Below, piece after piece: positions 7,258 to 56,182 of a DNA stretch of 64,000 nucleotides (the stretch's first letter is position 1; every line of letters starts with the position of its first letter). Made by a program: the position numbers and the translations under genes. Origin of the DNA: Amycolatopsis jiangsuensis (GTDB lineage: Bacteria > Actinomycetota > Actinomycetes > Mycobacteriales > Pseudonocardiaceae); contig NZ_JACHMG010000001.1 of NCBI RefSeq assembly GCF_014204865.1, positions 248,001-312,000 of the forward strand, given 5' to 3'. The notes beneath the pieces were generated by a model, which made no database searches, was not told the DNA's origin, and worked only from the letters and a program-made list of their open reading frames with translations.

Positions 7258-7710
7258 TCCAGCGGCCACGGGTCGGTCCCGGATTGGTTCGGCTCGGGGC
7301 GAGAACGCCGGATGACTCGGGCGGGACGACGGAAGCGGCGCGCACTCCGGACGGCAGGGCGCGGCACGAATCTCCGGGCCGCTGCGAGTGGCGGCACGAG
7401 GTGGTGTGTTGCGTGCGGGTGGTGACACGCAGTGGCAGGTCGCTGCGATAGCGGTGTGGGTGATGGCCTCAGGTTCGTGTCCGTGGGGTGACAGCGTGAA
7501 TCGGCGGGTGGCTGCGAACGCCGAGCAGGCGGGTGGCATGAAGTGGTGGCTGCCGCGAAAGCCGTGTGGGCGGGTGGCGTCACGTGCGTGTCCGGTGGGC
7601 GGCAGCGTGAACCGGGTGGTTGAGCGGAAGCCGAGCGGGCGACGGTGTGAACCGGCATGGTGCGGCGGGGCTTCGCGCGGGCATCCTGCGTGAGCACCGG
7701 CAGGATGTCC
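7258..7710 (+). repeat. Degenerate G/T-rich spacer, left part of repeat tract A
   Basis: No credible gene. The + strand is rich in G and T. A loosely repeated block (CGTGTCCG-TGGG-GGCAGCGTGAA) occurs near 7477 and again near 7588, about 110 bp apart. Frames here stay open only because A/T-rich stop codons are rare. Confidence 0.5.
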
Positions 7711-8100
7711 GCGGGTGCTGGGTCCGGTGGGTGCTGGGTGTGTGGTTGCCGAGTCCGCGGGTGCTGGGTGTGCGGGTGTCGAGCCCGGTGGGTTGGGTGC
7801 GCGGGTGCTGGGTCCGGTGGGTGCTGGGTGTGTGGTTGCCGAGTCCGCGGGTGCTGGGTGTGCGGGTGTCGAGCCCGGTGGGTTGGGTGCGCGGGTGCTG
7901 GGTCCGGTGGGTGCTGGGTGTGTGGTTGCCGAGTCCGCGGGTGCTGGGTGTGCGGGTGTCGAGCCCGGTGGGTTGGGTGCGCGGGTGCTGGGTCCGGTGG
8001 GTGCTGGGTGTGTGGTTGCCGAGTCCGCGGGTGCTGGGTGTGCGGGTGACGAGCCCGGTGGGTTGGGTGCGCGGGTGCCGGGTCCGGTGGTTGCCGAGTC
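7711..8100 (+). repeat. 90-bp tandem repeat, four full copies plus a degenerate fifth
   Basis: Copies start at 7711, 7801, 7891 and 7981. The first three are identical and the fourth differs at one base (a T to A change at 8049); a shortened, diverged fifth begins at 8071. One unit contains 49 G, 22 T, 17 C and only 2 A on the + strand. Inside the unit GCGGGTGCTGGG and GTGCTGGGTG recur, so the 90-mer itself grew from shorter units. Because 90 is a multiple of three, several frames stay open through it; no codon pattern, start or SD supports translation. Confidence 0.92.
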
Positions 8101-8222
8101 CCGCGGATGCCGAGCCCCGCGGGTGCTGGGTCCGTGGTTCCCGGGTGCGCGGGTGCCGAGCCCCGCGGGTGTCGAATCCGCCTGCACCGATCCCGCCTAT
8201 ACCGACCCCACGACGGTGCGAA

Positions 8223-8261
8223 GCGGCGGGCCACACCGAGCCGTCCGGTGTGGCCCGCCGC
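8223..8261 (-). terminator. 16-bp perfect stem-loop terminator
   Basis: GCGGCGGGCCACACCG (8223-8238) pairs perfectly with CGGTGTGGCCCGCCGC (8246-8261) around a 7-nt loop. It lies about 95 bp beyond the stop of the leftward DUF4097 gene and separates it from repeat tract A. There is no T run, as is usual in actinobacteria; by symmetry it can act on both strands. Confidence 0.75.
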
Positions 8262-8356
8262 CTCCCCCTGTGGCCGTCCGCGCGGGTGCCGGGCGTGGTT
8301 CGGGTGCCGGTCGCTGCGGGCGGGGTGGTCGCCGGGCGTGGTGGTGGCGGTGGTGG

Positions 8357-9439
8357 TCAGCCGGCGGCGCGCGTCACGACGGCGTTGCCGGTGCCGGTGC
8401 GGGCGCGGACGTGCAGGGCGACGTCGCCCTCCGGGGGTGCGCTCGTCACGTCCAGTTCGCTCGACACGCGGCCCGTCGCGGAGGCCAGTTCCACCTCGGC
8501 GCGTACGCCTTCGCGGATGCCCACGCGCACCTCGCCGGAGCCGGTGATGAGTTCCAGCGAGCCGGACGCTCCGTCGGCCACCGACAGGTCACCACTGCCA
8601 GTACGCGCCATCACCTCGCCCGCGACGGTGCCGAGCCAGACGCTGCCGGTGCCGGTCGCGACCGTCACCGAGCCGGCGACCGAGGTCGCCTCCACCGAAC
8701 CGCTGCCGGTGCGCAGTTGCAGACCGGCCAGCGTCGGGCCCAGCTTCACCGAACCGGTGCCGGTGCGCACGATCGCCGTGCCGTCGGCGCGTTCCAGTGA
8801 CACCTCACCGGAGCCGGTGAGCAGGTCCGCGCGGCCCGCGGTTCCGGACACGACGACGTCCGCCGACCCTGCACGTACCTCGACGTGCGATCCGACCGGC
8901 GCGTGCACGGTGACCGAGACCGGTACGTTCCGCAGCTGCCACGCCTTGGCCGCGCGGACCACGAGCCGGTTGCCGGTCTTCTCGATCCGTGCCTGCCGCA
9001 CCGCGTCGCCCGCGGAGGTCTGCGGCGCGACCCCGAGCTGGTCCCCGAACCGCTCACCGACCCACGACAGCAGGGTGCTCACCCCGTTCACCCACGACGG
9101 CTGCTCGCCGGTGTCGTGCTGCAGCCGGACCGAAGCCCCGGACTCCCGGTCGAGCAGCACCTCGACCCGTCCGATCGTGACGCCCAGGTCCAGCTCCAGC
9201 GGACCGCCCGCGTCGAAGTCCTGAAGCCGCACAAAGGGTCCCGCGTCCGAAGTGGAGCCACCACTGTCCGAAGTGGACTCTTCGGTGACGGAGGCCGTTC
9301 CGGACGCGTCCTCCGCCCGCGCTCCGTCGCTCGGCTCGTCTCCCGCCGCGGTGCTGCCGGTGGTCTCGCCGGCCCGCGGTTCGGCGGCGTCCGCGGCCGC
9401 CTCGGTGTCGTTCCCCTGGTCTTCCCGGTTCTCGCCCAT
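8357..9439 (-). CDS. DUF4097 beta-helix protein
   Basis: A 360-aa protein. Residues 1-70 are an acidic, Ser/Thr/Ala/Gly-rich low-complexity leader with no signal peptide; the rest is a DUF4097 (adhesin-like, putative beta-helix) domain of short repeats, with many copies of a G-T/S-G-S/D-V motif such as RTGTGSVKLG, RTGSGSVEA, ATGTGSVWLG and ITGSGEVRVG. Such domains often accompany small regulators in actinobacteria; the role is unknown. It follows the RHH gene by 14 bp on the same strand, so the two are one operon and are probably controlled by the direct repeats upstream of the RHH gene. Confidence 0.88.
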   Translation of the reverse strand: MGENREDQGNDTEAAADAAEPRAGETTGSTAAGDEPSDGARAEDASGTASVTEESTSDSGGSTSDAGPFVRLQDFDAGGPLELDLGVTIGRVEVLLDRESGASVRLQHDTGEQPSWVNGVSTLLSWVGERFGDQLGVAPQTSAGDAVRQARIEKTGNRLVVRAAKAWQLRNVPVSVTVHAPVGSHVEVRAGSADVVVSGTAGRADLLTGSGEVSLERADGTAIVRTGTGSVKLGPTLAGLQLRTGSGSVEATSVAGSVTVATGTGSVWLGTVAGEVMARTGSGDLSVADGASGSLELITGSGEVRVGIREGVRAEVELASATGRVSSELDVTSAPPEGDVALHVRARTGTGNAVVTRAAG

Positions 9440-9453
9440 GGTGGTGCCCCCTT

Positions 9454-9966
9454 CTAGCCTTCGACCCAGCCGTGCAGCTTGGTCTCGGTGCGGCTGCCTT
9501 GGTTCCAGCGCTCGTGACGCTGCTGGTGCTGCTGCGCCTGGCCGAGTGCCCCCTGCACGGCCTGCGCGACGAACGTGTTCAGCGAAATACCCTGCGCGGC
9601 CGCGGCCTGTTCGGCCTGGGCCTTCATCTGCTCGACGAGCCGCAGCGTGATCCGCGAGATGTCGCCGCCGTCGAGTGGCGGCGGAGGCGGTGCGGAGTGG
9701 TGCGGACCCGGCGACGGCGGTTCCTCCGCGCCGGTGACGACCACCCGCACGTCGCGGCCGTCCAGCCGGACGTCCACGACCTGGCCGGGCAGCGCCGCGG
9801 TCACCTCGGCGGCGAGATCGGACAGCGCGTTCATCAGCACGAGCCGGGCCGAGGGTTCCAGAGCCGAGGACAGCAGGGTGGCCGCGCGCCGGGTCTGCTC
9901 ATCCCCGGCGGAGGCCGTGTTCGCGAGGTCCTCGCGGAGGTTCGAGAGGTACGGCGTCAAGTCCAT
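9454..9966 (-). CDS. Ribbon-helix-helix (HicB/Arc-like) regulator
   Basis: A 170-aa protein. An N-terminal all-helical region (about 1-75) and a proline spacer lead into a ribbon-helix-helix domain near residues 105-145 (DISRITLRLVEQMKAQAEQ followed by ISLNTFVAQAVQGAL), the DNA-binding fold of Arc, HicB and many antitoxins. No toxin gene is adjacent: the partner in the operon is the DUF4097 protein. RHH dimers bind short direct repeats in tandem, and three ATGACGYCA repeats sit on the start codon and just upstream, consistent with autorepression. Family-level call firm, target inferred. Confidence 0.88.
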   Translation of the reverse strand: MDLTPYLSNLREDLANTASAGDEQTRRAATLLSSALEPSARLVLMNALSDLAAEVTAALPGQVVDVRLDGRDVRVVVTGAEEPPSPGPHHSAPPPPPLDGGDISRITLRLVEQMKAQAEQAAAAQGISLNTFVAQAVQGALGQAQQHQQRHERWNQGSRTETKLHGWVEG

Positions 9967-9996
9967 GACGCCACTATGACGTCACATATGACGCCA
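9965..9996 (-). promoter_or_regulatory. Three direct repeats, probable RHH autoregulatory operator
   Basis: ATGACGCCA (9965-9973), ATGACGTCA (9976-9984) and ATGACGCCA (9988-9996), spaced 11 and 12 bp, about one helical turn. The first overlaps the start codon of the leftward RHH gene. A CATAGT -10-like hexamer for that gene lies inside the array, so binding would block transcription. The central copy is part of a perfect 8-bp palindrome (TGACGTCA). Confidence 0.65.
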
Positions 9997-10096
9997 TGTC
10001 AAGTCACCGTGGTGTCATGCCGCCCCGCTCCCGGACCGTGGCCGTCCCGGCGGTTAGGCTGCCCGCGGAGTCGCCGAGGAAAGAGGGAGTGGTGTC

Positions 10097-10849
10097 GTGG
10101 CCGAGACCGTGTCGCCCCAAGTGCAGTTGATCGCGAAGACGGAGTTCTTCCCGCCGGAGGAAGTGCCGTGGTCGACCGACGCCGACGGGGGGCAGGCGCT
10201 CGCCGAGTTCGCCGGCCGCGCCTGCTACCAGTCCTGGAAGAAGCCGAACCCGAAGACCGCGACCAACGCCGGCTACCTCGAGCACATCATCGACGTCGGG
10301 CACCTTTCCGTGCTGGAGCACGGTTCCGTGACGTTTTACCTCACCGGCATCTCGCGCTCGCTGACCCACGAGCTGATCCGGCACCGGCACTTCTCCTACT
10401 CGCAGCTGTCGCAGCGGTACGTGCCCGAGCGGGACGCCGCGTTCGTCGAGCCGGACGTGATCGCGAACGATCCGGAGCTGCACGAGAAGTTCGTCAAGGC
10501 CGCGCAGGCGAGCGTGGACGCCTACACCGAGCTGCTGGCCGGCCTGGAGGACAAGTTCGCCGACGCGCCGAGTGCCACGCTGCGCCGCAAGCAGGCGCGC
10601 CAGGCCGCCCGCGCGATGCTGCCCAACGCGACCGAAACCCGCATCGTCGTGACCGGCAACTACCGCGCCTGGCGCCACTTCGTCGCCATGCGCGCGACCG
10701 AGCACGCCGACGTCGAGATCCGCGCGCTGGCCGTGGAATGCCTCCGGCAGCTGCAGAAGGCGGCGGCCAACGTGTTCGCCGACTTCACGATCTCGACCCT
10801 GCCCGACGGCACCGAGGTCGCCTCCAGCCCGAAGGTTCTCGAAGGCTGA
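10097..10849 (+). CDS. thyX: FAD-dependent thymidylate synthase
   Basis: Makes dTMP from dUMP using methylene-tetrahydrofolate and reduced flavin. The 250-aa protein carries the ThyX signature [13 protein letters not shown] from residue 95 (RHRxxSxxxxSxR), the distal RxxLPNATET-type segment ([21 protein letters not shown]) and the HADVEIR motif. GTG 10097 follows a GA-rich SD (AGAGGGAG). A TAGGCT hexamer at 10055-10060 predicts a leader of about 30 nt. The stop overlaps the next gene (TGATG). Location close to dapA and RNase J matches mycobacteria. Confidence 0.97.
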
Positions 10850-11244
10850 TGAAGCGCCTCGCGATCGATGTCCAGCGCGGGGCGTACTCGGTGGTCCGGC
10901 TGCCCGCCGACGCCCCGGTGCCCGCCGAGCTGCTCGCCCCGGGCCCGTTCCTGGTCTCCGTGACGCGGACGCCGCACGAGCTGTCGGTCATCTGCCACGC
11001 CGAGCGGGAACCGGAAGGCGGCACCGTCGAGCGCGGCTGGCGGCTGCTCAGCGTGCGCGGGCCGCTCGGGTTCACGCTCACCGGCGTGATCTCGGCGCTC
11101 GCGTCCGAGCTGGCCGCCGCCGGGGTCGCGCTGTTCTCACTGTCCACATTCGACACCGACCACATCCTCGTCCGGGCGGACGAGCTGGACCGCGCCGTCC
11201 AAGCGTTCCGGGACTCCGGCCACGACGTGGCCCTCCCCGGCTGA
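10849..11244 (+). CDS. ACT-domain protein (CASTOR-like)
   Basis: A 131-aa small protein with two ACT-like halves; the C-terminal half holds the recognisable amino-acid-binding pattern (GPLGFTLTGVISALASELAAAGVALFSLSTFDTDHILV) related to CASTOR/ThrA-type ACT domains. These bind amino acids and usually regulate partners. Its ATG shares a base with the thyX stop (TGATG), so it is co-translated with thyX. There is no enzyme domain. A regulatory amino-acid sensor is a reasonable inference, but ligand and partner are unknown. Confidence 0.82.
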   Translation: MKRLAIDVQRGAYSVVRLPADAPVPAELLAPGPFLVSVTRTPHELSVICHAEREPEGGTVERGWRLLSVRGPLGFTLTGVISALASELAAAGVALFSLSTFDTDHILVRADELDRAVQAFRDSGHDVALPG

Positions 11245-11307
11245 CCGCCTCCACGACAGCACCCGTAGCGGTGGCGCAGCACACCCTTGCCCGCCGAAGT
11301 TCGGCAA

Positions 11308-11327
11308 GCCTAAACTTTGGTTTAGGC
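11308..11327 (+). promoter_or_regulatory. DtxR/MntR-type palindrome upstream of mntH
   Basis: GCCTAAAC-TTTG-GTTTAGGC is a perfect 8-4-8 inverted repeat, 28 bp upstream of the transporter start. It resembles boxes bound by metal-responsive DtxR/MntR family repressors (TTAGGC half-sites) and suggests Mn(II)-dependent repression of mntH. Confidence 0.75.
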
Positions 11328-11355
11328 AGCGCGACAGTAGTGGGGTGGGGGCGGA

Positions 11356-12588
11356 ATGGCGGTGGCGCAAGCGGGCCGGTTGTCCCGGCTGCGCGCGGGC
11401 AGCGCACTGCTCGGCCCGGCGTTCGTGGCCGCCATCGCGTATGTGGACCCGGGTAACGTCGCCGCCAACATCAGCGCCGGCGCGGGGTACGGGTACCTGC
11501 TGGTCTGGGTGATCGTCGCGGCCAACCTGATGGCCGTGCTGGTGCAGTACCTCTCCGCGAAGCTCGGGCTGGTCTCCGGCCGGTCGCTGCCGGAGGCGCT
11601 GCGTGAGCGGCTGTCCCGTCCGGGCCGGCTGGCGTACTGGGCACAGGCCGAGGTGGTCGCGGTGGCCACCGACCTGGCCGAGGTGGTCGGCGGCGCGATC
11701 GCGCTCCACCTGCTCTTCGGGCTTCCGCTGCTGGCCGGCGGGCTGATCACCGGGCTGGTCTCGCTGGTGCTGCTGGCAGTGCAGGACCGCGGTGGCCAGC
11801 GCCCGTTCGAACGCGTCGTGACCGGCCTGCTCGCGGTGATCGCGGTCGGGTTCCTGGCGAGCCTGTTCGTGGCACCGCCGTCGGCTGCCGGGATCGCGCA
11901 CGGGCTCGTGCCCCGCTTCAGCGGCAGCGGCAGTGTGCTGATCGCCGCGGCGATGCTGGGCGCCACGGTGATGCCGCACGCGGTGTACCTGCACTCCGGG
12001 CTGGTCCGCGACCGGCACGGCGCGGTGCCACCGGAACGCCGGCGCGGCTTGTTGCGCGCCACCCGGTACGACGTCGGGTTCGCGATGCTGCTCGCCGGCG
12101 CGGTGAACCTCGGCATGCTGCTGGTCGCCGCGGCGAATCTGCAAGGACAGCAAGGGGTCGACACAATTGAGGGGGCGCACGGGGCGGTCGCTGTCGCGCT
12201 CGGCCCGGGTGTGGCGCTGCTGTTCGCGATCGGGCTGCTGGCCTCCGGGCTGGCGTCCACTTCGGTCGGTGCCTACGCGGGCGCGATGATCATGCAGGGC
12301 CTGCTGCGCAAGCGGATCCCGATCCTGCTGCGGCGGCTGGTCACGCTGATCCCCGCGGTGGTGGTGCTCGCCGCCGGGGCCGATCCGAGTGCCGCGCTGG
12401 TGGTGTCGCAGGTGGTGCTGTCGTTCGGCATCCCGTTCGCGCTCGTGCCGCTGATCCGGCTCACCGCGGACCGCGCGCTGATGGGGGAGCAGGTCAACCG
12501 GCGCCTCACCACGGTGCTGGCCGGCGTGGTCGCCGCGGTGATCATCGTGCTCAACGTGGTGCTGATCGGGCTCACTTTCGCCGGCTGA
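11356..12588 (+). CDS. mntH: Nramp-type Mn2+/divalent metal transporter
   Basis: Proton-coupled importer of Mn2+ and related metals in the cytoplasmic membrane. The 410-aa protein has about eleven hydrophobic segments. Metal-site motifs are visible: DPGN in TM1 (residues about 32-35) and MPH in TM6 (AAMLGATVMPHAVYLHS). Length is typical of bacterial MntH. The ATG follows a G-rich stretch and a perfect palindrome typical of DtxR/MntR regulation lies just upstream, so expression is probably repressed by metal. Stands alone between the thyX unit and the kinase. Confidence 0.95.
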   Translation: MAVAQAGRLSRLRAGSALLGPAFVAAIAYVDPGNVAANISAGAGYGYLLVWVIVAANLMAVLVQYLSAKLGLVSGRSLPEALRERLSRPGRLAYWAQAEVVAVATDLAEVVGGAIALHLLFGLPLLAGGLITGLVSLVLLAVQDRGGQRPFERVVTGLLAVIAVGFLASLFVAPPSAAGIAHGLVPRFSGSGSVLIAAAMLGATVMPHAVYLHSGLVRDRHGAVPPERRRGLLRATRYDVGFAMLLAGAVNLGMLLVAAANLQGQQGVDTIEGAHGAVAVALGPGVALLFAIGLLASGLASTSVGAYAGAMIMQGLLRKRIPILLRRLVTLIPAVVVLAAGADPSAALVVSQVVLSFGIPFALVPLIRLTADRALMGEQVNRRLTTVLAGVVAAVIIVLNVVLIGLTFAG

Positions 12589-12636
12589 ACCCGGGGCGGA
12601 TCCGGCGGAACCCGCACCGCGGCCGTGCGGTCGGAC

Positions 12637-12642
12637 TAGCAT
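12637..12642 (+). promoter_or_regulatory. Probable -10 element of the kinase gene
   Basis: TAGCAT fits the actinobacterial TANNNT -10 consensus and lies 31 bp before the GTG start, leaving a short leader that contains the GAGGAG Shine-Dalgarno. Confidence 0.4.
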
Positions 12643-12673
12643 CTGCGCGAACCCGACTGAGGAGCCCCACCCC

Positions 12674-14155: not shown

Positions 14156-14169
14156 CCGCGCGCGAGATG

Positions 14170-14221
14170 TTCCGTCCCCCGCCCGCGGGGAACGGAAATT
14201 CTCCGGACCCGCCAGGTCCGG
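14170..14221 (+). terminator. Double hairpin after the kinase gene
   Basis: A first stem (TTCCGTCCCC at 14170-14179 with GGGGAACGGAA at 14187-14197, one bulged A) is followed by a second (CCGGACC at 14203-14209 with GGTCCGG at 14215-14221, 5-nt loop). It begins 14 nt after the kinase stop and ends 31 bp before dapA, so it separates the two units. Confidence 0.65.
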
Positions 14222-14252
14222 GCCGGGTTCGCCGGCCGGACGAGGTACCGTC

Positions 14253-17075: not shown

Positions 17076-17179
17076 GGTGGCCTCCTGTCCGGGATCGGGC
17101 GTAGGACTCGAGTGTGGCGTGCCGCGGCGGTGCGCACATCCGGCGCGAGACTGGTTCCGGTCTCCTCCGCAGGGATGAG

Positions 17180-35696: not shown

Positions 35697-35733
35697 ACCA
35701 GACGGCGCGGCCGGGCCGGGGTGGCGAGCGCGG

Positions 35734-35955
35734 GTGTGCCCCAGGGTTCGGGACGGCGTGCGCGGGCGTGCTCGTGGGGTCGGATGGCGTGCGCGGGTGT
35801 CCGGAGGTTCGGGACGGCGTACGGCGGTGTGCCCGGAGGTTCGGGACGGCGTACGCCGGTGTGCCCGGAGGTTCGGGACGGCTCACGGCGGTGTGCCCGG
35901 AGGTTCGGGACGGCTCACGCCAGTGCGCCCGGACATTCGGCGTCGGCGCGCCGTT
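35734..35955 (+). repeat. 32-bp imperfect tandem repeat (tract B)
   Basis: Six to seven units built on GTGTGCCCGGAGGTTCGGG + ACGGCGTACGCCG. Well-kept units begin at 35827, 35859, 35891 and 35923, exactly 32 bp apart, with shorter degenerate copies near 35734 and 35797. As 32 is not a multiple of three, the array is not coding. The + strand has more G than C (15 to 9 per unit). It occupies the spacer between pspM and the allophanate hydrolase gene. Confidence 0.88.
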
Positions 35956-39092: not shown

Positions 39093-39416
39093 CCACGCCC
39101 CGGCGGCCTGCGGACCCACCCCCCGATGTGGCGCCCATCGCGGCCGGCCCGGTGCCCGATGGCGAACGACGAGCCTCGCCGCGGTCGGGTCGGTGAGCGA
39201 CATCGCTGGCTGACGCGCACACTCCCGACCGACCGGGCGGCAGGCGACCGGCGGCCCCGTCACCGAAGAGCGCCGGACGAGGTGGAGGCCGCCCGCGGGT
39301 TCGCCATCGGCAAGCAGGCAGACGCTCCGACCCGGAACGGCCGGATCGTCCCCGCCCAGTGCCGACTGAGCGGGGATGCCTCGGCCTGACGGGCGGTCGG
39401 ATTCGCCGTCCGCGCC
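39093..39416 (-). other. Spacer upstream of pyrD without recognisable gene
   Basis: About 320 bp between pyrD and repeat tract C. No start with a good SD and no hairpin of note is seen; it presumably holds the pyrD promoter. Confidence 0.4.
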
Positions 39417-40020
39417 CGCGTGTTGCGGTGGTGGCTGGGACGGGGTGTTGCCACATCAGTCGCGTCCGGGTGTCGCGGTGGCGGCGGCCGGGCTGGGGTG
39501 TTGCGGCGTCAGCTGCGCCCGGGTGTTGCGGTGGTGGCCGCGCCGAGGTGCTGCAGCGCCAGCCGGACCGGGATGCTGCCACGTCAGCCGCCGTCCGGGT
39601 GTTGCGGTAGTGGCCGCCCCAGAGTGTTGCAGCGCCGCCGGGCCAAGATGTTGTTCACGTCAGTCGGGCTGAGGTGTTGTCACGCCAGCCGGGCCAGGGC
39701 GTTGCGGTGGTGGCTGGGACGGGGTGCCGCCACATCAGCCGCGTGCGGCTGTCGCGGTGGCGGCTGGACTGAGGTGTTGCAGCGTCAGCTGCGCCAGGCG
39801 TTGCGGCGCTAGCCAGGCTCACGTGTTGCCACGTCAGCCGGGCCAGGGCGTGGCGGTGGTGGCCGGGCCGGGTGTTGCGACGTCAGCCGCGCCTTGGTGT
39901 TGGGGTGGCGGCCGGGCCGAGATGCGACCGAGTGCTGTAGTGGCTGTTGGGCCGAGGTGTCGTGAGGTCGACGGGTTCGCGAGTGCTGTAGTGGCTGTTG
40001 GGCCGAGATGCGCGACGCCA
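39417..40020 (+). repeat. 25-bp degenerate repeat tract (tract C)
   Basis: About twenty diverged units, most 25 bp apart: TGTTGC/TGYYGC anchors occur at 39421, 39446, 39471, 39499, 39524, 39549, 39574 and 39600 and continue. Two unit types alternate, one ending GGTGGTGGCTGGGACGGGG, the other CACGTCAGCCGSGCCGGG. Near the right end a 28-bp stretch starting CGAGTGCTGTAGTGG occurs twice, 51 bp apart (39929 and 39980). The + strand is G/T-rich, although both flanking genes are read leftward. Frames crossing it are not gene-like. Confidence 0.85.
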
Positions 40021-40332
40021 ACGGATCCCCGATGCAGCAGTGGCAACCGGGCCGAGGATCCGAGACGCCAACCGGCGCCCGCACTGGCAGCCAAACCAAG
40101 GTGCCGCGATACCAACCAAATCCGGGCGCCGCGCCAGGAGCCAGGCCAACACGTCGCAACCCCAGCCAGCGTCCGACAAACGGGGAGAACACCGTCGAAA
40201 ATAGTGGTAGCCCCCGGGGTGCCTCCTGGACGCCGTCACGCGTCCAGGCTCGAGCCGGACTGGTGCTCGAGAACCCCGGGAGCCCGGTGACTGCCTGGTA
40301 TTCGCTCTCAGGCAGCACGCGAAGCAGGCGAT

Positions 40333-40348
40333 GAGCCGAAGGTGGCTC
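40333..40348 (-). terminator. Small hairpin downstream of the mini-ORF
   Basis: GAGCC, 6-nt loop, GGCTC. It lies about 40 nt beyond the mini-ORF stop on the minus strand, possibly marking the end of a short transcript. Confidence 0.3.
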
Positions 40349-40389
40349 GGGTTGTATCGCTGCTCAAAGTCCCTTGCGCGTGCTATCCG

Positions 40390-40428
40390 CTAGCGGACAG
40401 CCACCTCACGAGTCCTGTGTGAATACAA
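40390..40428 (-). CDS. 12-codon mini-ORF with near-complete anti-16S Shine-Dalgarno
   Basis: TTG at 40428 encodes MYSHRTREVAVR then TAG. AAAGGAGGTGGTCC (40433-40446) is complementary over 14 positions to the 16S rRNA 3' tail (one G-U pair), with its AAGGAGG core 10 nt before the TTG. The stop lies in the loop of a hairpin (GCTGTCCG-CTAG-CGGATAGC) covering the end of the ORF. No gene follows on this strand for 1.3 kb. It could be a regulatory peptide, a ribosome-binding RNA or a leader whose partner was lost. Confidence 0.4.
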   Translation of the reverse strand: MYSHRTREVAVR

Positions 40429-40586
40429 CTGAGGACCACCTCCTTTCCCGTGTACTGCCACGCTAACCGCGAACCGCGCCGTCCGGCAACATCATTTCGG
40501 GGTTCTGTCCGCCACCCCGGCCACGTTCGCCGGACGCGAACACCCCGGCGGAGACCCGGCGAACACCCCCGTGAAGACCGCGGCGT

Positions 40587-41387: not shown

Positions 41388-41390
41388 CGT

Positions 41391-44411: not shown

Positions 44412-45170
44412 GAGGGGGCGAGCCGGGTTGAGCAGGCAGGGGTTGATCTGGCAGGTCGGCGGCTGACGAGGGCCGCGGGCACGTGTGGGTCTGGTGGCCT
44501 GGCGCTGGCTGGGACGAGTGGTGGTTGGCGGGTGGTCGTCCCGGGGAGGTGGCTGGGACGCGTGATGGCTGGCTGGGCGGTTGTCCCGGGAGCGTGGTGG
44601 TTGGCTGGGTGGTCGCCCAGGGGAAGTGACTGGGCCGCGTGGTCGCCCAGGGGATGTGGCTGGGCCGCGTGGTGGCTGGTTGGCCGGTGGTCCTGGGGGA
44701 GGTGGCGGCTGGCTGGGCGGTCCTCCCGGGAACGTCGTGGTTGCCTGGGCGCACGCTCCGCGTGCAAGAGGTCGTGCGGGGGAGGTGGTGGTTGGCTGGG
44801 CACTTGTCCTGGGAGGGTGCTGGCTGGCTGGCGGTTGTCCCGGGGCTGGTTGCGCAGTTGTCTCGGGGAAGTGGTGGCTGGTGTCTCGGGGAAGTGGTGG
44901 TTGGGTCGGCGGAGGCGGCGCGCGGCCGGGGGCTGCCCAAGCGGGCGTTGGCTTGAAGGCAGCAGTGTCCGCGTGCCCGTCCTCGCGCCTGGGCACGCGG
45001 TGGCTGGCACCTGTTCCGGGACGAGGCCGGCTGTCGCGCAGTGTGCTCGCCGGAGCGCGGAAGTGCGGTTCGGACCATTGCCGGAGTGGCGGGTGGCCTG
45101 CCGCGGGAGGCCGGGTGGGGCCTGGTGACCCAGCGTCAACCCCGGTCGTGACGGATTTCCCCCGATTCGA
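44412..45170 (+). repeat. About 30-bp degenerate G/T-rich repeat tract (tract D)
   Basis: Units of the form GTGGTCGCCCAGGGGAWGTG + RCTGGGCCGC occur twice in tandem near 44600-44665, surrounded by diverged relatives (GGTCGTCCCGGGGAGGTGGC, GTGGTGGTTGGC). The + strand is strongly G/T-biased up to about 44930, and the remainder to 45170 is plain spacer with no gene. It separates dinB from the DUF3040 gene, both read rightward. Confidence 0.75.
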
Positions 45171-45310
45171 TCCGTTCCGGATACGGGATCGGGTAGTCGG
45201 ACGAGCGCGGGGCTCGTATCCTGGACAGTGCCACCCCGCCTGGGGTTGGCTGTTGGGTCCAGGACGTTGCGCGGCCCGGCGCCCGCGACAGCTGTGCCGG
45301 AGGAGGAAAG

Positions 45311-45732: not shown

Positions 45733-45760
45733 CCGCGCTTCACTCCCAGGTGAGGCGCGG
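45733..45760 (+). terminator. 11-bp stem-loop with T tail after the DUF3040 gene
   Basis: CCGCGCTTCAC, TCCCAG loop, GTGAGGCGCGG (one T-G pair), followed by TTTCTC. Starts 17 nt after the stop; one of the few hairpins here with a T run. Confidence 0.8.
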
Positions 45761-45784
45761 TTTCTCGTACGCGGCCCCGCCGGC

Positions 45785-46340
45785 CCGGAGTCAGGCCGCG
45801 AAACGGTCGAGGCCGCGCCCGGATTCGACCAGCCCGCCGCGGGCAACAGCGGCGACCGGCTGCTCCGGTGCCCGGCTACCACGGCGGAGCTGCTGCGGCG
45901 AGAATGCTGCGGTGGTGAGGCTGCTGCGACGGGGACGCAGCGGCGACCCGGCTGCGGTGCACGGCTGGCGTGGCGGTCGGCGCTGCGGCAATCACGGTGA
46001 CGGCTGCCGCGTCGAGCGGTGATCGGCTGCTTCGACTGCCTGCGGGACGAGCCGATGCTGAGGTGATTGGCTGCGGTGAGCAGCACTACGGCAATTCGGT
46101 GCCCGCGTTGAGAAGCTGGCTCGTCTTGCGGCGCCCGGCTGTGGTGGTGGACTGGTGCTGCGGTGACCGGCTGCCGCGCCGAGCGGTATGGGGGCCCGCA
46201 CTGAGCGGTGCCAGGCCGAGCGGTGCGGCGCCGTGCAATGCGGCGGCCTGCGCGAGCAGTGCGGCGGCAAACAGGCTGCCGCGACCGCGGCTGCCGCGAC
46301 CGTGACTGCCGTAACCGTGGCGACCCCCCTACTCTCCGGA
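45785..46340 (+). repeat. Degenerate GCTGC-rich repeat tract (tract E)
   Basis: Recurring CGGTGAYCGGCTGCCGCG + YCGAGCGGT (near 45996 and 46161), GGCTGCTGCGGY variants throughout, and a 15-bp pair GGCTGCCGCGACCGC/T near 46275-46305. Units are roughly 15 and 30 bp and badly diverged. No gene is recognised between the DUF3040 terminator and the end of the convergent transglutaminase gene (46492); the last 150 bp are plain spacer. Confidence 0.65.
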
Positions 46341-46491
46341 CGACCAGAGCACAGGCTGGACGAGGGTTCTCCCGCAAACCGACATCCCACCGCGGCCGCG
46401 TCACCGTGTCCGCCGGTCACCGTGGAAAGTGTGCGCCGGAAGCCCGCAGTGCAGTCGCCGTTCGTCGGGTGACCGACCGGAATGCGCCCAG

Positions 46492-49080: not shown

Positions 49081-49553
49081 CGGGCCCCTCCGTCCGCGCG
49101 TGCCCGGCCCGCCTGCCCGGGACGCCCAGCCGACGACGACGTGGCGGGAACGGCTTGGCCGGGTGTGCGCTGGCTGTGGCTGGTGTGGTGGTGGTCGTGC
49201 GGCGGGGCGGCCGGCGGCAGCGGCGTGGTGGGAACGGTGTGGCCGGGTGTGCGCTGGTGGTGGCTGTGCGGCGGTGTGGGGTGGCTGGTCATGTGGTGGC
49301 AGCGCGGCGTGGCGACTGGATGGCCGACCGTGCGGTGGTCGTAGTGCGGCTGGGGGAGTCGATAGCCGACCGTGCCGTGGTGGCTGTGCGGCGGAGTGGC
49401 GTGGATGGTCGTGTGGTGGCGGTACAGCGTGGCGAGGCCACGATCAGTCGTGCGGAGCTGGAGGTGCGGCGGGACAAGCCCAACCCCGACAGGGCCCCGG
49501 TCGTGCTCGTCGCTCGGCTGGGTGGGCCGGGAGGCCGCGGTGGGGGTGGTCAT
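49077..49553 (-). CDS. His/Thr/Pro-rich ORF created by repeat tract F
   Basis: A 158-codon frame between DUF58 and the transglutaminase, overlapping both by ATGA. It begins MTTPTAASRPTQPSDEHDRG, similar to the MTATASRPPASPP start of the transglutaminase, then becomes low complexity (HHTTIHATPPHSHHGTVG, TPPHSHHQRTPGH). On the + strand this is a G/T-rich degenerate repeat (GTGGTGGCTGTGCGGCGG type) like the other tracts. It is either a real coupled small protein or a repeat that expanded inside the operon and was tolerated because the frame stayed open. Confidence 0.4.
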   Translation of the reverse strand: MTTPTAASRPTQPSDEHDRGPVGVGLVPPHLQLRTTDRGLATLYRHHTTIHATPPHSHHGTVGYRLPQPHYDHRTVGHPVATPRCHHMTSHPTPPHSHHQRTPGHTVPTTPLPPAAPPHDHHHTSHSQRTPGQAVPATSSSAGRPGQAGRARADGGAR

Positions 49554-50815: not shown

Positions 50816-50845
50816 GCGGTTTCTCGAATCGGGTAGCGGGACGGC

Positions 50846-51904
50846 TCAGCGGGCCGAGCCCTGGGGGACGGGAACGCGGTGCAGGACGGCCCGCACCACG
50901 TCCGTCGCCGAACGGCGGGCGGCGTGCGCCTCGGTGGTCAGCACGAGCCGGTGGGCCAGCACCGGCACCGCGACGGTGTGCAGGTCGTCGGGCACCACGT
51001 AGTCGCGGCCGGACAGCGCCGCCTGCGCCCGCGCGGCCCGCACCAGGTGCAGCGTCGCGCGCGGCGAAGCGCCGAGCCGGATCTCCGGCACCTGCCTGGT
51101 CGAGGCGACCAGGTCGACCGCGTACCGGCGGACCTCCGGCGCGATGTGCACCGTGCGCACCGTCGCGGCGAGCCGCCGCACGGTCGCGCCGTCGGACACC
51201 GGCGCCAGCTCGGCGAGCGGGTCGTGCCCGGCGTGCTCGTCGACCATGGCCAGCTCCGCCTGCTGGTCGGGGTAGCCGATGGACACCCGCGCGGTGAACC
51301 GGTCACGCTGCGCCTCGGGCAACGCGTAGGTGCCTTCCATCTCGATCGGGTTCTGGGTGGCGATCACCATGAACGGGGCGCCGAGCTGGTAGGTGCTCGT
51401 GTCGACCGTGACCTGGTGTTCCTCCAGGCATTCCAGGAGCGCGGACTGCGTTTTCGGCGAGGCCCGGTTGATCTCGTCGCCCACCACGATGTTCGCGAAC
51501 ACCGGGCCGGGCCGGAACTCGAACTCGCCGGTCTGCCGGTTGTAGATGGACACCCCGGTGACGTCGCTGGGCAGCAGGTCGGGGGTGAACTGCACGCGGC
51601 TGACCGTGCAGTCGATCGAGCGGGCGAGCGCCTTGGCCAGCGACGTCTTGCCGACGCCGGGCACGTCCTCCACGAGCAGGTGGCCCTCGGCCAGGAGGGT
51701 GACCAGCGCGATCCGGACGACCTCGGGCTTGCCGACCAGGACCCGTTCCACGTTCGCGGCGATCCGCCGCGCGGTGTCGTGCAGTTCGTCGAGCCCGGCC
51801 GCGGGGAGGCTCGCCAGCCCGTCCGCGGAGTCCACCACCGGGTGCGGCGGCCGGCCGTTCCCGTGCGGCCCGGCAGCGGAAGCGGGTTGGATTCTCGACG
51901 TCAC
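50846..51904 (-). CDS. MoxR family AAA+ ATPase
   Basis: A 352-aa chaperone-like ATPase heading the operon. Walker A VEDVPGVGKTSLAKALA, Walker B NIVVGDEINRASPKTQSALLE, the sensor stretch VIATQNPIEMEGTYALPEAQRDRF and the C-terminal lid are complete. GTG 51904 lies four bases after a perfect AGGAGG (51909-51914); the longer open frame to 52057 lacks an SD. MoxR proteins assemble or activate vWA/DUF58 partners. It diverges from the WXG-like cluster. Confidence 0.95.
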   Translation of the reverse strand: MTSRIQPASAAGPHGNGRPPHPVVDSADGLASLPAAGLDELHDTARRIAANVERVLVGKPEVVRIALVTLLAEGHLLVEDVPGVGKTSLAKALARSIDCTVSRVQFTPDLLPSDVTGVSIYNRQTGEFEFRPGPVFANIVVGDEINRASPKTQSALLECLEEHQVTVDTSTYQLGAPFMVIATQNPIEMEGTYALPEAQRDRFTARVSIGYPDQQAELAMVDEHAGHDPLAELAPVSDGATVRRLAATVRTVHIAPEVRRYAVDLVASTRQVPEIRLGASPRATLHLVRAARAQAALSGRDYVVPDDLHTVAVPVLAHRLVLTTEAHAARRSATDVVRAVLHRVPVPQGSAR

Positions 51905-52173
51905 TCGACCTCCTGGTGGGGCGTGGCTGAGCGGGTCCTCCGGCACCTGCCGGGGCGCTCGCGGTCCGCGCCGCGCCCAGCCTCGCATCCAGTGTGTCAA
52001 ACTCGGGCGAACTCGGCGGCGCAACCCCGCGAACCTCCGCCGGTGACGCTGTGCCATGGAGACCGCTACGGCATCCGGGTGAGGAGCGAGTATTTTCGGG
52101 TGGGTCCGCTGACCGTCCGCGCTGCCGTAAGCTCTCTCGTCGAGGTCGCTTGATCACGGAGAGGCGCAACCGC

Positions 52174-52533
52174 ATGAGCGAGACCGACGCCCTGCCCGAC
52201 GTGCCGGGCCTGGCCGGCGGCCGGTTCGTGGTCTCGCCGGAGCTGGCCGGCGCCACCTACGCGCAGCTGGGCGAACTCGGCGACGTGGTCGGCGAGATGG
52301 CCCGCGAGGCCGCGGTGCTCGGCCGGTCGGTGCCGCTGGGCAGCGGGTACGCCGGCGAGATCGGCACGTTCATGGCGAAGTACGGCATCGGCCGGGACGG
52401 CTCGGTGGCCGATCAGCTCTCCGCCTTCGGCCGGGAGATCGCCGCGCTGCGCGAACGCATCGCCGGCGCACTGGACAAGTACCGCGCGCAGGACGAGAAC
52501 GCCGCGGACGGGGTGGACTGTGCCGGTGGCTGA
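52174..52533 (+). CDS. WXG100/EspC-like small protein
   Basis: A 119-aa mostly helical protein in the position of an EspC/WXG100-type type VII substrate or its helper: PELAGATYAQLGELGDVVGEMAREAAVLG, then a mid-protein loop (GYAGEIGTFMAKYGIG), then a helix AFGREIAALRERIAGALDKYRAQDE. No exact W-x-G is present. An SD (GGAGAGG) precedes ATG 52174. First of four tightly packed genes with DUF3558, PPE-like and EspG proteins, which argues for an ESX-related role. Confidence 0.7.
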   Translation: MSETDALPDVPGLAGGRFVVSPELAGATYAQLGELGDVVGEMAREAAVLGRSVPLGSGYAGEIGTFMAKYGIGRDGSVADQLSAFGREIAALRERIAGALDKYRAQDENAADGVDCAGG

Positions 52534-53068
52534 TCCGGTGACCGCGCCGCAGGCGCGGCGGAAGTTCGCGGTCGTCTCCGTGCTGTCGCTGTTGCTGCTC
52601 ACCGGGTGTGGCCGTGCGCCTGCCGCGCAGCCCGCGGCGCCCGCGAGCAGTGCGCCGGCGTCGGCTTCGGCGCCGTTGTCGATGGCTGGGCTGGAGCCGT
52701 GCGAGCTGTTGTCCCCGCAGGACCGTTCGGCGGTCGGGTTCACCGCGCTCGGCAAGGAGAAGACGATCGGTGAGGCGCGGGCGTGCGACTGGAAAGTGCC
52801 GTCGGTCTACGGCGTCACCGTCACCCTCGACGAGACGAACGGCCTGGACAACCTCGACGTCTCCACCGGCGAGCGGACGAAGAAGACGGTCGGTGCGCAT
52901 CAGGCGCTGCAGGTGTCCGGCCGCAACGGCACCTGCGCCGTGCTGCTCGGCGTGGCCGGCCGGGCCAGCGTGCAGGTCGACGTGAGCAACGCGAACTTCG
53001 CCGACGTACCGCTCGCCTGCCGCCGGGCGTCGTCGGTGGCCGAGCTGGTCGAACCGAAGCTGCCCTGA
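52520..53068 (+). CDS. DUF3558 family lipoprotein
   Basis: A 182-aa exported lipoprotein. The signal sequence ends in the lipobox LLTGCG with the lipidated Cys at residue 30 (from GTG 52520; an alternative GTG is two codons on), followed by an Ala/Pro/Ser spacer and the DUF3558 domain starting LEPCELLSPQDRSAVGF, with further Cys at ACDWKV, TCAVLL and LACRRA that could form disulphides. It overlaps the preceding gene by 14 bp. DUF3558 lipoproteins are common in Pseudonocardiaceae and mycobacteria; their role is unknown. Confidence 0.88.
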   Translation: MPVADPVTAPQARRKFAVVSVLSLLLLTGCGRAPAAQPAAPASSAPASASAPLSMAGLEPCELLSPQDRSAVGFTALGKEKTIGEARACDWKVPSVYGVTVTLDETNGLDNLDVSTGERTKKTVGAHQALQVSGRNGTCAVLLGVAGRASVQVDVSNANFADVPLACRRASSVAELVEPKLP

Positions 53069-53089
53069 AACCCCGCGAGGAGGAGTGCC

Positions 53090-53662
53090 GTGCCCGATAC
53101 CCCGGTCGTCCCGGAACCGGTGGCCCGCTACGAGGCGATGAGCCACGCCGCGCTCGCCGCGCAGGTGCTGGACGGCAACGACCCGGCTGCCGCGGGTTCG
53201 GCAGGTGCGCGCTGGACCGAGCTGTCCGGGCGGCTGCGCGAGTCGATCGGCAGCCTCACCGCGTTGTCCGCCGGCAGCCGGGAAAGCTGGCAGGGCGAGG
53301 CGGGCGACGCGATGCGGACCGTGCTCGCCCGTGCGGCGGGCTGGCTGGGGGAGACCTCCGCGATGTCCACTGTGGTCGGTGATGCGGTGACCGGGCAGGC
53401 CGAGGTCGCCGCGCGGGCGCGCGCGGAGATGCCGGAACCGGTCGAGTTCGATCCGGCGACCATGATCCGCTCCGCCGCGGCGAGCGGGAACGTGCTGGAG
53501 CTGGCCGGGCTGTCGTTCGAGATGGACGTGCGCAGGGAGGCCGCCGAGGCGGCCCGGCAGAAGGCGATCGACGTACTGCGCACGCGGGACACCGCGTTGC
53601 ACGGGCTGGTTCCGCGCGCGGACTTCCCCGCGGTCCCCCAGCTCGGCGCGGAGCCGGCTTGA
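53090..53662 (+). CDS. PPE/WXG-like helical protein
   Basis: A 190-aa helical protein with two long N-terminal helices and a W-x-G turn (SRESWQGEAGDAM, Trp67), as in WXG100/PPE-type type VII substrates, then a Pro-containing hinge (EMPEPVEFDPATM) and a C-terminal helical pair. A good SD (GAGGAG) lies just upstream of GTG 53090. Its stop overlaps the TTG of espG, and PPE-EspG pairing is the known chaperone-substrate relation in ESX systems. The PE partner is missing; the first gene of the cluster may fill that place. Confidence 0.75.
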   Translation: MPDTPVVPEPVARYEAMSHAALAAQVLDGNDPAAAGSAGARWTELSGRLRESIGSLTALSAGSRESWQGEAGDAMRTVLARAAGWLGETSAMSTVVGDAVTGQAEVAARARAEMPEPVEFDPATMIRSAAASGNVLELAGLSFEMDVRREAAEAARQKAIDVLRTRDTALHGLVPRADFPAVPQLGAEPA

Positions 53663-54366
53663 TCCGGCTGTCCGCGTCGGCGTTCGACGTCGTCTGGGAC
53701 GACCTCGGGCTCGGCCGTCCGCCGGCGCCGCTGGCGGTGCCGAGCGTCGGGGAGACCGTCGACGACCGGGCCGCGATCCGCGCCGAGGTGTACCGGAACC
53801 TGGGCGAACGGGGCCTGTTCGACGGCCGCCTCGACGCGGCACTGGAAAGCCGGCTGCGGCTGCTGGCCTCGGGCACGGTGTACCTCTCGTGCGAGGTGCT
53901 CGCGGACATGACCGCGGACGAACCGTTCCGCGCGGTCTCCGCGTTGCGGGGCCGGGAGGCGGTGCTCGCCGTCCAGCCGGTGCGGACGGTCGGCGTGCGG
54001 CGGATCGGCGAGAGCGAGCTGGCCTCGGAGATCGTGGCCGTACTGCCGGAGTTCGCGCCGGGTCCCGGGTACGGGGTCCGGCTGCCCGCGGCCGGCGCGG
54101 AGACTCCGCCGGCCGGGCGCCACGGCGAGGAACTGCGGGCGATCCAGGCGCGTCCGGTGTATGCGGCCGGGCAGTTCACCGTCCGGGTCCGCGACCGCGA
54201 CGGCCGGCTCGTCCGTACCGGGGGCGTGACCTGGTTCGACACCGACGCGGGCGCCTATTCCGCGGCCCAGTCACCCGGCGCCGGCGGCGAGGACTGGGTG
54301 ACCGTCGCCCCGGTCGACGCCCCGCGTCTGGTCGAACGCGTGATGGCGCTGATCCCGGCCGGATGA
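53659..54366 (+). CDS. EspG-like ESX secretion-associated chaperone
   Basis: A 235-aa EspG-family protein. In mycobacteria EspG binds the tip of PE-PPE dimers in the cytosol and delivers them to the ESX machine. Here LSASAFDVVWDDLGLGRPPAPL opens the domain, and GGVTWFDTDAGAY plus the closing VERVMALIPAG fit the family. It starts at TTG 53659, overlapping the PPE-like gene by four bases, so the pair is co-translated. No EccB/C/D core component is in the window; secretion would need a locus elsewhere. Confidence 0.85.
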   Translation: MIRLSASAFDVVWDDLGLGRPPAPLAVPSVGETVDDRAAIRAEVYRNLGERGLFDGRLDAALESRLRLLASGTVYLSCEVLADMTADEPFRAVSALRGREAVLAVQPVRTVGVRRIGESELASEIVAVLPEFAPGPGYGVRLPAAGAETPPAGRHGEELRAIQARPVYAAGQFTVRVRDRDGRLVRTGGVTWFDTDAGAYSAAQSPGAGGEDWVTVAPVDAPRLVERVMALIPAG

Positions 54367-54370
54367 CCGG

Positions 54371-55585
54371 TCAGGTCCGCGCTTCGCGGCGCCGTCCGGC
54401 GAAGTGCCAGGCCAGGAACCCCAGCGCCAGCAGCAGATAGCTGTTGCCGGCCAGCTGCTCCAGCGGTCCCCAGGACAGCTCGCGGAAGTCCTGGTGGGGC
54501 AGCAGCGAATGCGGTGCCACGACGAAGACCGCGACGATCGCGGCCAGCCCGGCCACCGCGGTGCGGCTCGTGGCCCGGGCGGCGAACAGGACGGTCGCCG
54601 GGACGATCCACACCCAGTGGTGCGACCACGAAATGGGGGAGCAGACGAGCACTGCCGCCGCGTTCAGCAGGAACGCCGTCGGCGCGTCGGTCCGGCGCAT
54701 GGCCGCGGCGGCGAGCAGCAACGCGGCCAGGGTGGCGACCGCGATCAGCACGAGCGCGGTTGCGTGCGGCAGCCCGAACCGGTTGACCGCGCCCTGGATC
54801 GTCTGGTTGGTGGCGAAGATCGACCCGCTCATCCCGGAAGCCCCGGTCAGCCCGCCGCCGAACCAGTACGCCGCGGAGGCACGGGGAGCCACCGCGAACC
54901 CGAGCAGCCCGGCCGCGAGGAACGTCGCGACCGTCGTCCCGGCCGCCCGGAAGTCCCGTCGCAGCAGGAAGAACAGCAGGAACCCGGCCGGCGTGATCTT
55001 CACCGCCGCGGCGAGCCCCACCAGTACTCCGCGCGGGAGGCGGGTCTTGGGGCCCAGGCAGTCGACGACGACCAGGGCCATGAGCACGAGGTTCACCTGG
55101 CCGAACCACAACGTCTCGCGGACCGGCTCGAACGCCAGCGCGGCGGCCCCGGCCACCACCGAGGCGAGGACGGCGGCACGGCGCCGGGTGTGCGGCCGGA
55201 TCACCACGTAAACCGTGGTGCCCAGTGCGGTCAGGGAAATCCCGAGCATCAGCACCGCGGCCACCGGCGTCGGCGGGACCGCGAGCGCGAGGAACGCGAC
55301 CGCGGCGAACGGCGGGTAGATGAAAGGCAGCACCATCCCGGCCCGGGTCGGCGGAAGCGTGCCGTAGACGTCCTGCCCGTGCGCGAGCGCCTGCGCGCCG
55401 TGCCGGTAGACCTCCAGGTCCACCGGCCACATCGTGCAGACCGCGGTCAGCACACCCGCGGCGAACACGACCGCGGCCGGCACTAGCGCCGACACCGCCC
55501 AGCGCCGCCCGGACACGGCCTCGAACCACCGCCGCAGCACGACGGCAGGGGACACCGTGCCAGCTCGGCTCCCGGACGGCATCAC
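54371..55585 (-). CDS. GT87 (GT-C) polyprenyl-phosphate mannosyltransferase-like protein
   Basis: A 404-aa polytopic membrane protein with about ten spans. An Asp motif sits in the first external loop (PVDLEVYRHGAQALAHGQDVYG), typical of GT-C alpha-(1,2)-mannosyltransferases of the Rv2181/PimE type that elaborate lipomannan or related glycans. IYPPFAAVAF and WFGQVNLVLMALVVVDCL are further family blocks. It converges on espG with four bases between, and diverges from mraZ across 700 bp. Acceptor inferred only from family. Confidence 0.88.
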   Translation of the reverse strand: MMPSGSRAGTVSPAVVLRRWFEAVSGRRWAVSALVPAAVVFAAGVLTAVCTMWPVDLEVYRHGAQALAHGQDVYGTLPPTRAGMVLPFIYPPFAAVAFLALAVPPTPVAAVLMLGISLTALGTTVYVVIRPHTRRRAAVLASVVAGAAALAFEPVRETLWFGQVNLVLMALVVVDCLGPKTRLPRGVLVGLAAAVKITPAGFLLFFLLRRDFRAAGTTVATFLAAGLLGFAVAPRASAAYWFGGGLTGASGMSGSIFATNQTIQGAVNRFGLPHATALVLIAVATLAALLLAAAAMRRTDAPTAFLLNAAAVLVCSPISWSHHWVWIVPATVLFAARATSRTAVAGLAAIVAVFVVAPHSLLPHQDFRELSWGPLEQLAGNSYLLLALGFLAWHFAGRRREART

Positions 55586-56182
55586 CGCGAGATCATCCCG
55601 TCCCGCCCCTCACACGCCGCCACGGGGGCACCTCCGGCCGGCACGGCGGGAGTACGGCACGGAGCCCTGACGGAGGTGTCCGTGACCGGGGGCCTGACGG
55701 AGCTGCTGTCCGTGCGGGCATCCCTGACGGAATCGGGCTCGGTCAAGCACTCCTTCATGGTCCGCTGGGAGATCGCTACGGGCGGACGGAGGTGCACGGA
55801 CGGTTCGAGCCGCAAGTGGACGGGCTCGGCTGTGAGTGGCGGGCTCGTGGTGTGAGTGGGGCTGGTGGTGTGGGCGGGCTCGTGATCTGAGCCGGGCTGA
55901 TGGTGTGGGTGGACGGGCCCGTGCAGGGCCCTGCCCGGCTCCCCACCGCGCCCCACCTGCGTCCCCCACTCCACCCCACCCGGGCTCCCCACCGGTCCCC
56001 ACTGCCGGGTGGCGGTGGTCCCCACGGTGCCGTGATCCGGACGTTTCAGGGGTGATCTGGTTGCCCGGGACCCCGCCATGGGGGATCTTGGCCACCGCGG
56101 CCCCCACCCGGCCCCACCTGGACCCACGACGCTGACCAGCGCAAACGCGTGACCCGACAGGGCGACAACGCGGCGGAGCGCG
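55586..56182 (+). repeat. Spacer with short G/T-rich repeat (tract G)
   Basis: Between the GT87 gene and mraZ. Around 55840-55915 four units of about 18 bp (GGGCTCGTGGTGTGAGTG and variants) run in tandem on the + strand. A C-rich stretch follows near 55925-55995. No reading frame with a credible start or SD is seen. Confidence 0.6.

Follow-up and report, generated by a model that had tools for sequence, protein, structure and literature searches.

The stretch of DNA analysed here (64,000 bp; hereafter the window, C1:248001-312000) belongs to an 8,045,121-bp contig of Amycolatopsis jiangsuensis, a soil actinobacterium with a chromosome of 8.05 Mb, and contains seven spacer tracts, lettered A to G, that are rich in G and T on the + strand (Table 1). 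The positions of the tracts and the directions of their flanking genes are as an initial annotation of the window had given them, and its statement that G exceeds C on the + strand in all seven was confirmed, with GC skews (excess of G over C) of 0.14-0.44. The corresponding TA skew (excess of T over A) is 0.06-0.43 on + and is lowest in E. The same annotation had described all seven as tandem-repeat tracts. When each was compared with 200 dinucleotide shuffles using Tandem Repeats Finder (TRF), A, B, C, D and G scored above every shuffle, E exceeded the shuffles in repeat coverage alone (0.17 vs 0.13), and F showed no repetition by this test. Thus, the window holds five repeat tracts, one marginal case and one G/T-rich spacer without significant repeats. 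The arrays are 58-96% matched and their copies are not perfect.

Table 1. Tracts and adjoining elements of the window (GC skew on the + strand; highest TRF score followed by the shuffle maximum)
Feature	Position	Strand	Flanking genes	Character	GC skew	TRF score / shuffle maximum
Tract A	7258..8360	+	convergent: AlkZ-like glycosylase gene / DUF4097 gene	G/T-rich spacer	0.30	756 / 77
Tract A, 5' part	7258-7709			first 450 bp; skewed, not repetitive by shuffle test
Tract A, clean array	7710-8131			90 bp x 4.7 copies, 96%
Tract B	35697..35950	+	co-directional right: Rv2743c family / amidase	32-bp degenerate array	0.27	235 / 68
Tract C	39400..40010	+	co-directional left: dihydroorotate dehydrogenase / Fpg-like	25/49/76-bp degenerate arrays	0.23	217 / 75
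Tract D	44412..45010	+	co-directional right: dinB / DUF3040	23-44-bp degenerate units	0.37	128 / 68
Tract E	45800..46320	+	convergent: DUF3040 / TgpA-like	weak skew (0.14/0.06), marginally repetitive	0.14	62 / 81
Tract F	49100..49500	+	within leftward MoxR-DUF58-TgpA gene row	strongly G/T-rich, not significantly repetitive	0.32	38 / 94
Tract G	55810..55925	+	divergent: GT87 gene / rightward frame upstream of mraW	18/35-bp units	0.44	109 / 60
Conserved block	45150-45310		upstream of DUF3040
Ms_IGR-5 match (Rfam)	40202-40453	-	adjoins tract C
mraW RNA match (Rfam)	56765-56873	+	upstream of mraW

The replication frame was taken from dnaA and from base composition. The dnaA gene lies at 5.172 Mb. 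Over the window and 140 spaced samples of 20 kb, cumulative GC skew is lowest at 5.15-5.2 Mb and peaks at about 1.05-1.1 Mb. These turning points and the site of dnaA put the window on the arm extending rightwards from the origin and across the contig end, so that + is the leading strand here. The terminus is the one given by cumulative skew; in relatives, it was taken as half of the rounded genome length. The same 140 stretches and the window served as the genome sample for all tract counts (2.86 of 8.05 Mb, or 36%), with no stretch between 7.07 and 8.05 Mb. Genes in the sample were segmented with our own three-periodic hidden Markov model, not a published gene finder, which was trained on 813 long open frames and delimited 1867 internal noncoding gaps (379 kb). 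Tracts were called as maximal-scoring keto-rich (G/T-rich) segments on both strands, blind to the arm, and a single order-2, strand-symmetric simulation of the 1867 gaps provided the null for their number.

In this sample, G/T-rich tracts follow the leading strand, and do so more strictly as their score rises: 87 of 109 are leading-oriented at a score of at least 25, 61 of 72 at 30, 40 of 46 at 40, 32 of 34 at 50, 29 of 30 at 60 and 15 of 15 at 80. The simulated gaps yielded one tract at 25 or above and none at 30 or any higher cut. Within the window, tracts A, C, D and F score at least 40, and five tracts score at least 30. Four of the 72 tracts are weakly called copies of one dispersed element; without them the count at 30 or above is 58 of 68, and outside the window it is 53 of 63 (26 of 27 at 60 or above). 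The initial annotation had named random orientation by arm as an outcome fatal to its proposed replication-strand link; in the sampled genome, tracts elsewhere are not random by arm. Indeed, the sign flips between the arms, with 23 tracts on + and 7 on - along the right arm and 3 on + and 35 on - along the left. Where the two neighbouring genes run in the same direction, 21 of 26 tracts are leading-oriented if those genes are on the leading strand, and 12 of 13 if they are on the lagging strand. Polarity set by transcription would flip between these two classes; hence transcription does not set it, just as the arrangement of genes in the window had suggested. As far as sampled, the phenomenon is chromosome-wide, polarised by replication and, as described below, fast-evolving.

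The orientation bias extends, in weaker form, to the genus. Runs of 21 keto bases are leading-oriented in 84 of 120 cases over 17 Amycolatopsis genomes (this one included), with wide scatter between genomes; in a genome of another genus, 5 of 9 are leading, without bias. This measure is cruder than the tract caller, but it supports a genus trait. The count leaves out sequences repeated within a genome, homopolymer and T-run entries, and same-sign neighbours within 5 kb, together with the six runs of genome G001 on the contig without dnaA, further duplicated-cluster entries of G004, G013 and G041 (in G041, one near-identical pair) and 33 of 42 entries of G051, which are poly-G or adjoin poly-G. 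The dnaA gene was also located in G005 and G021, whose runs stand outside the count. K24 runs are present in 48 of 60 genus genomes, but their number was rejected as a measure of abundance across the genus and keto runs served for orientation only: one run can be counted several times over, repeated elements enter the tally, and in G051 poly-G makes up most of it. Poly-G/poly-C runs of about 20 bases or longer abound across the whole G051 genome, in some cases directly adjoining one another, and are perhaps assembly artefacts. Loss of the mismatch endonuclease NucS was ruled out as a cause, as the family was found in 60 of 60 genus genomes, including this one; in G047 it matches in pieces only (G047:C11:108297-130378), perhaps a broken or misassembled gene.

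On their G/T strand, the 72 tracts consist of 46.6% G, 22.3% T, 22.8% C and 8.3% A, and the GC skew of the 46 tracts scoring at least 40 spans 0.13-0.57, with a median of 0.36. Arrays detected by TRF cover 34.1% of tract bases, compared with 5.0% of other noncoding and 0.7% of coding bases. Among arrays lying more than 60 bp from genes, those inside tracts are leading-oriented in 58 of 66 cases. Apart from the one element present in four copies, the tracts are mutually unrelated: of 2556 tract pairs, similarity was found in 6, each a pair of those four copies, and a dispersed repeat family was thereby ruled out as the source of the tracts. Among the 40 of 210 candidates scored in a blastn search of the genome with tract A, there was nothing beyond the tract itself and a 45-bp opposite-strand match inside the query.

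Comparison with relatives indicates rapid turnover of these spacers. One case is the dinB/DUF3040 spacer that holds tract D, which was compared across the 12 closest of 80 loci, with gene ends taken from tblastn matches. It measures 899 bp here, 1153 bp in A. dendrobii and 965 bp in A. rubida, and 160-268 bp in 10 of the 12 relatives; DinB itself is 87% identical in A. dendrobii and A. rubida, its closest named matches, and 89% in G001, a genome of the same genus and the nearest relative. With either of these two species the window has in common only the promoter-proximal 187 bp (93%), and their own spacers have 424 bp in common (89%). These 424 bp do not include the arrays of the two species, which differ from each other (29 bp x 5.2, and 42/82-bp units). 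The same spacer is thus enlarged in three close species, each with different arrays. Taken together, the tract pairs and the spacers of relatives indicate units that are unrelated, recent and lineage-specific.

The comparison with G001 points the same way. Its collinear blocks flanking the tracts are 80-92% identical to the window, and the spacers of A to F gave no alignment to it by blastn (E<=1e-8, at least 80 bp). At tract B, the unaligned gap is 368 bp here and 38 bp in G001; at tract G, an unaligned stretch of 1593 bp, the GT87 gene included, compares with 192 bp. Conversely, the amidase and dihydroorotate dehydrogenase genes overlap in the window and are separated in G001 by an 802-bp spacer that is G/T-rich on the leading strand (GC skew 0.20, TA skew 0.50) and contains about 16 perfect copies of a 9-bp unit. 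On the evidence of these alignments, tracts are gained, lost or replaced between species. The G001 spacer orthologous to tract C (L224) also contains, by eye, palindromic GGGGCCCC-type elements with arms GTGAAG/CTTCAC.

GC skew is usually ascribed to point-mutation bias. Here, the substitution spectrum was estimated in two ways. Averaged over gene strands, the replicative skew at fourfold sites is about 0.02 for GC and 0.09 for TA; in gaps of 400-700 bp, it is about 0.04 and 0.05. On the leading strand, C>T changes among repeat copies are more frequent than G>A (ratios of 1.46-2.32 over three cuts), and A>G is not clearly above T>C (0.74-1.05). The equilibrium implied by these changes, polarised by majority rule, is a GC skew of -0.08 to 0.01 and a TA skew of 0.06 to 0.23; third codon positions of the window/G001 pair, polarised by two agreeing outgroups, give -0.06 and 0.15 (732 changes in 11 genes), both samples being small. 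Substitution can thus apparently supply the excess of T over A, but not that of G over C. With a predicted GC skew near zero and a tract median of 0.36, plain mutation bias seems insufficient for the size of the GC skew, and it explains the TA skew in part.

These estimates bear directly on the most conventional alternative, in which unconstrained spacers drift to the equilibrium of strand-biased substitution, driven by cytosine deamination on exposed single strands, and the resulting low complexity gives rise to incidental repeats. The excess of C>T over G>A among repeat copies is what this account would expect, the skew of fourfold sites and of noncoding DNA in bulk has the same sign, and array skew grows with array degeneracy. 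However, the equilibrium GC skew is about zero or negative in both of the small samples, the skews of fourfold sites and of 400-700-bp gaps fall far short of the tract median, and tracts that cannot be aligned have appeared between species with flanks still 80-92% identical, which leaves little time for drift. We therefore consider this explanation unlikely, though it is the most serious of the rivals. Alternatively, tracts may arise in both orientations, with those that place G/T on the leading-strand template stalling forks and being deleted or selected against, so that G/T on the lagging-strand template is what survives. Orientation-dependent replication trouble at G-rich repeats has been described in eukaryotes, and a penalty of this kind would explain why polarity peaks in the top-scoring tracts and why, over all noncoding arrays, it appears at strong skew only (95 of 168 arrays below an excess of 0.3, and 77 of 104 at or above it). 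Against it, the TA skew is as strong as the GC skew (0.43-0.54 vs 0.33-0.36), which a penalty on G structures does not explain. Canonical G-quadruplex motifs (G3+N1-7) are also depleted, with 27 in the 72 tracts compared with 69.4 (s.d. 6.6) in mononucleotide shuffles, although purging could itself cause such a deficit. Such one-sided removal seems improbable as the main cause, and the suggestion of the initial annotation that the tracts may be prone to form G-quadruplexes is not supported.

Two further possibilities are less likely still. Arrays of selected polar signals, such as FtsK-orienting polar sequences (KOPS), architecture-imparting sequences (AIMS) or Chi-like octamers, have octamer polarity along the leading strand as their hallmark (PMC5993296). 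In the present tracts, the commonest octamer occurs in 18 of 72, short of the mean null maximum of 20.75, and octamers above their own expectation occur in 5-7 tracts, four of which are copies of the dispersed element. Nor does tract density, counted with those four copies, rise to the terminus: the bin farthest from the origin (3.5-4.1 Mb away) has 11.9 per Mb and the others 17.5-38.5 per Mb. Because tract sequence is also not conserved between species, a role as polar signals is very improbable, and the proposal of protein-binding arrays fares no better, since no octamer is found in more tracts than in shuffles. Slighter still is the chance that the tracts are unrecognised or decayed coding sequence. 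A period-3 signal (p<0.01) was detected in 13 of 48 tracts of at least 200 bp, A and F of the window among them, and the longest open frame spans on average 0.96 of a tract, compared with 0.86 in shuffles (34 tracts). Yet 33 of the 48 tracts have no such signal (p>0.05) and 31 of these 33 are still leading-oriented; median period-3 power is 0.77 in tracts and 7.79 in coding sequence; no Pfam family matched any of ten long open frames that cross or adjoin the tracts of the window; and the spacers of A to F cannot be aligned to G001. Apart from a weak and partial period-3 signal, the comparison with relatives, the periodicity and Pfam gave no sign of conserved coding sequence, the finding that was to have overturned the original proposal. 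Genome-wide in the sample, 132 of 270 noncoding TRF arrays have a period divisible by three (p = 1.4e-7), which would favour a coding origin; among arrays more than 60 bp from genes, the proportion is 62 of 119 outside tracts and 31 of 64 inside. This triplet preference is unexplained, with missed coding sequence, decayed genes and triplet slippage as candidates.

The explanation that we favour, at about even confidence, is that the tracts are spacer DNA born by tandem duplication, the gain or retention of which is polarised by the replication fork. The tracts would be young, mostly functionless spacers that grow by repeated tandem duplication, through slippage or template switching, of units of about 10-130 bp that have nothing in common; of the origins first proposed (slippage, protein-binding arrays, and R-loop- or G-quadruplex-prone regions), slippage-type duplication fits best. 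As regards R-loops, the polarity is independent of the direction of the neighbouring genes. The polarity would arise at the step of duplication or retention, probably from a difference between the leading and lagging replisome: DNA whose nascent leading strand, and hence whose lagging-strand template, is rich in G and T would be gained or kept far more often than DNA of the opposite orientation. Later C>T-biased substitution may contribute to the T/A skew, and the lowered sequence complexity may invite further duplication, closing a feedback loop. A bolder version, which we regard as possible but rather doubtful, is that the fork creates noncoding DNA directionally, with tandem duplication preferentially adding keto-rich sequence to the nascent leading strand. 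Spacers would then carry their polarity from birth, separately in each species, and would owe it neither to transcription nor to point-mutation bias.

Several observations weigh against polarised gain or retention. Of the 39 youngest arrays (at least 94% identity), 22 are leading-oriented, with a mean excess of 0.026 (s.e. 0.055), so that this class has hardly any polarity; per array, polarity grows with degeneracy, a trend expected if skew builds up gradually once a duplication has occurred. In arrays of at least 90% identity, the bases gained show a GC skew of 0.12 (95% interval 0.01-0.22) and a TA skew of 0.145 (-0.01 to 0.30). Arrays outside called tracts and more than 60 bp from genes have no polarity (61 of 118 leading), and about two thirds of tract bases are without a detectable tandem repeat yet nearly as skewed as the rest (GC/TA 0.33/0.43 vs 0.36/0.54 in the TRF part). 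The tracts were selected for high skew, so that their skew values are upper-tail figures. In G001, the spacers at C (-0.09/-0.15) and E (0.08/-0.29) are unpolarised, and some relatives show no bias in keto runs (4 of 9, 2 of 5, 1 of 3). Moreover, no tract of either sign scoring at least 25 was found in nine 12-kb stretches from the otherwise unsampled 7.1-8.05 Mb, although these 108 kb contain just 14.7 kb of noncoding DNA and are uninformative. The weak polarity of young arrays and the unbiased arrays outside tracts are among the reasons why our confidence in polarised gain or retention is no more than even.

Among known systems, the tandem repeats of the giant archaeal Borg elements come closest (PMC9879509). 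Their units are described as born independently and recently, partly intergenic and gained between close relatives, and they have a strand-specific composition bias, being A-enriched on the gene-bearing strand (PMC9879509). In contrast to the degenerate, G/T-rich, chromosomal repeats described here, Borg repeats are perfect, A-rich and found in genes as well (PMC9879509). Their replichores also carry nearly all genes on one strand, which makes transcription and replication inseparable there (PMC9879509). The present tracts lie beside genes of both directions, and the system thus separates replication from transcription.

The tracts resemble bacterial replicative skew in their leading-strand excess of G and T and in the change of sign at origin and terminus, but their GC skew is more than ten times that of the fourfold sites of this genome and is confined to the tracts. 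For Actinobacteria, near-zero replicative and transcriptional effects have been reported (PMC2031905). As tandem arrays, the tracts also resemble bacterial minisatellites and satellites; a survey of the latter lists 23 satellites in the 10.2 Mb of Amycolatopsis mediterranei, and as its main text contains neither 'strand' nor 'leading', orientation is apparently not treated there (PMC6749651). With KOPS, AIMS and Chi octamers (PMC5993296) they share leading-strand polarity, and differ in having no common motif and no terminus gradient. The system combines replicative skew with bacterial minisatellites and leaves a mechanistic gap. Replication-oriented noncoding tandem tracts in a bacterium were not described among the matches listed in our literature search, and no publication matched the combination of tandem repeats, leading strand, intergenic position and Actinobacteria; as most subscription journals lay outside the search, such a description may nevertheless exist in print. 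The strongest skew here is in spacers of fast turnover, and the measured substitution spectrum does not account for it. A leading/lagging difference in repeat gain or loss may thus be a separate source of strand asymmetry, and fork-directed birth of keto-rich spacers, if true, would be the insertional counterpart of GC skew.

A few other features of the window were noted in passing. The block upstream of DUF3040 recurs over about 155-187 bp at 92-95% identity in seven of ten relatives' loci, and at 86%, 87% and 75% over different lengths in the other three. A consensus fold of 12 sequences has almost no covariation (1 of 45 pairs), and no Rfam family matched the block at gathering score; it is perhaps a conserved promoter or leader. 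At both ends of tract F (49077 and 49550), an identical short start/stop overlap can be seen by eye, and in some relatives the gene row nearly abuts, which might hint at a duplicated DUF58-TgpA junction enclosing the tract. The Ms_IGR-5 match, an actinobacterial small RNA, falls in the conserved block of the spacer containing tract C. Finally, the rightward frame beside tract G, a putative mraZ, lies upstream of mraW, as does the match to the mraW RNA.

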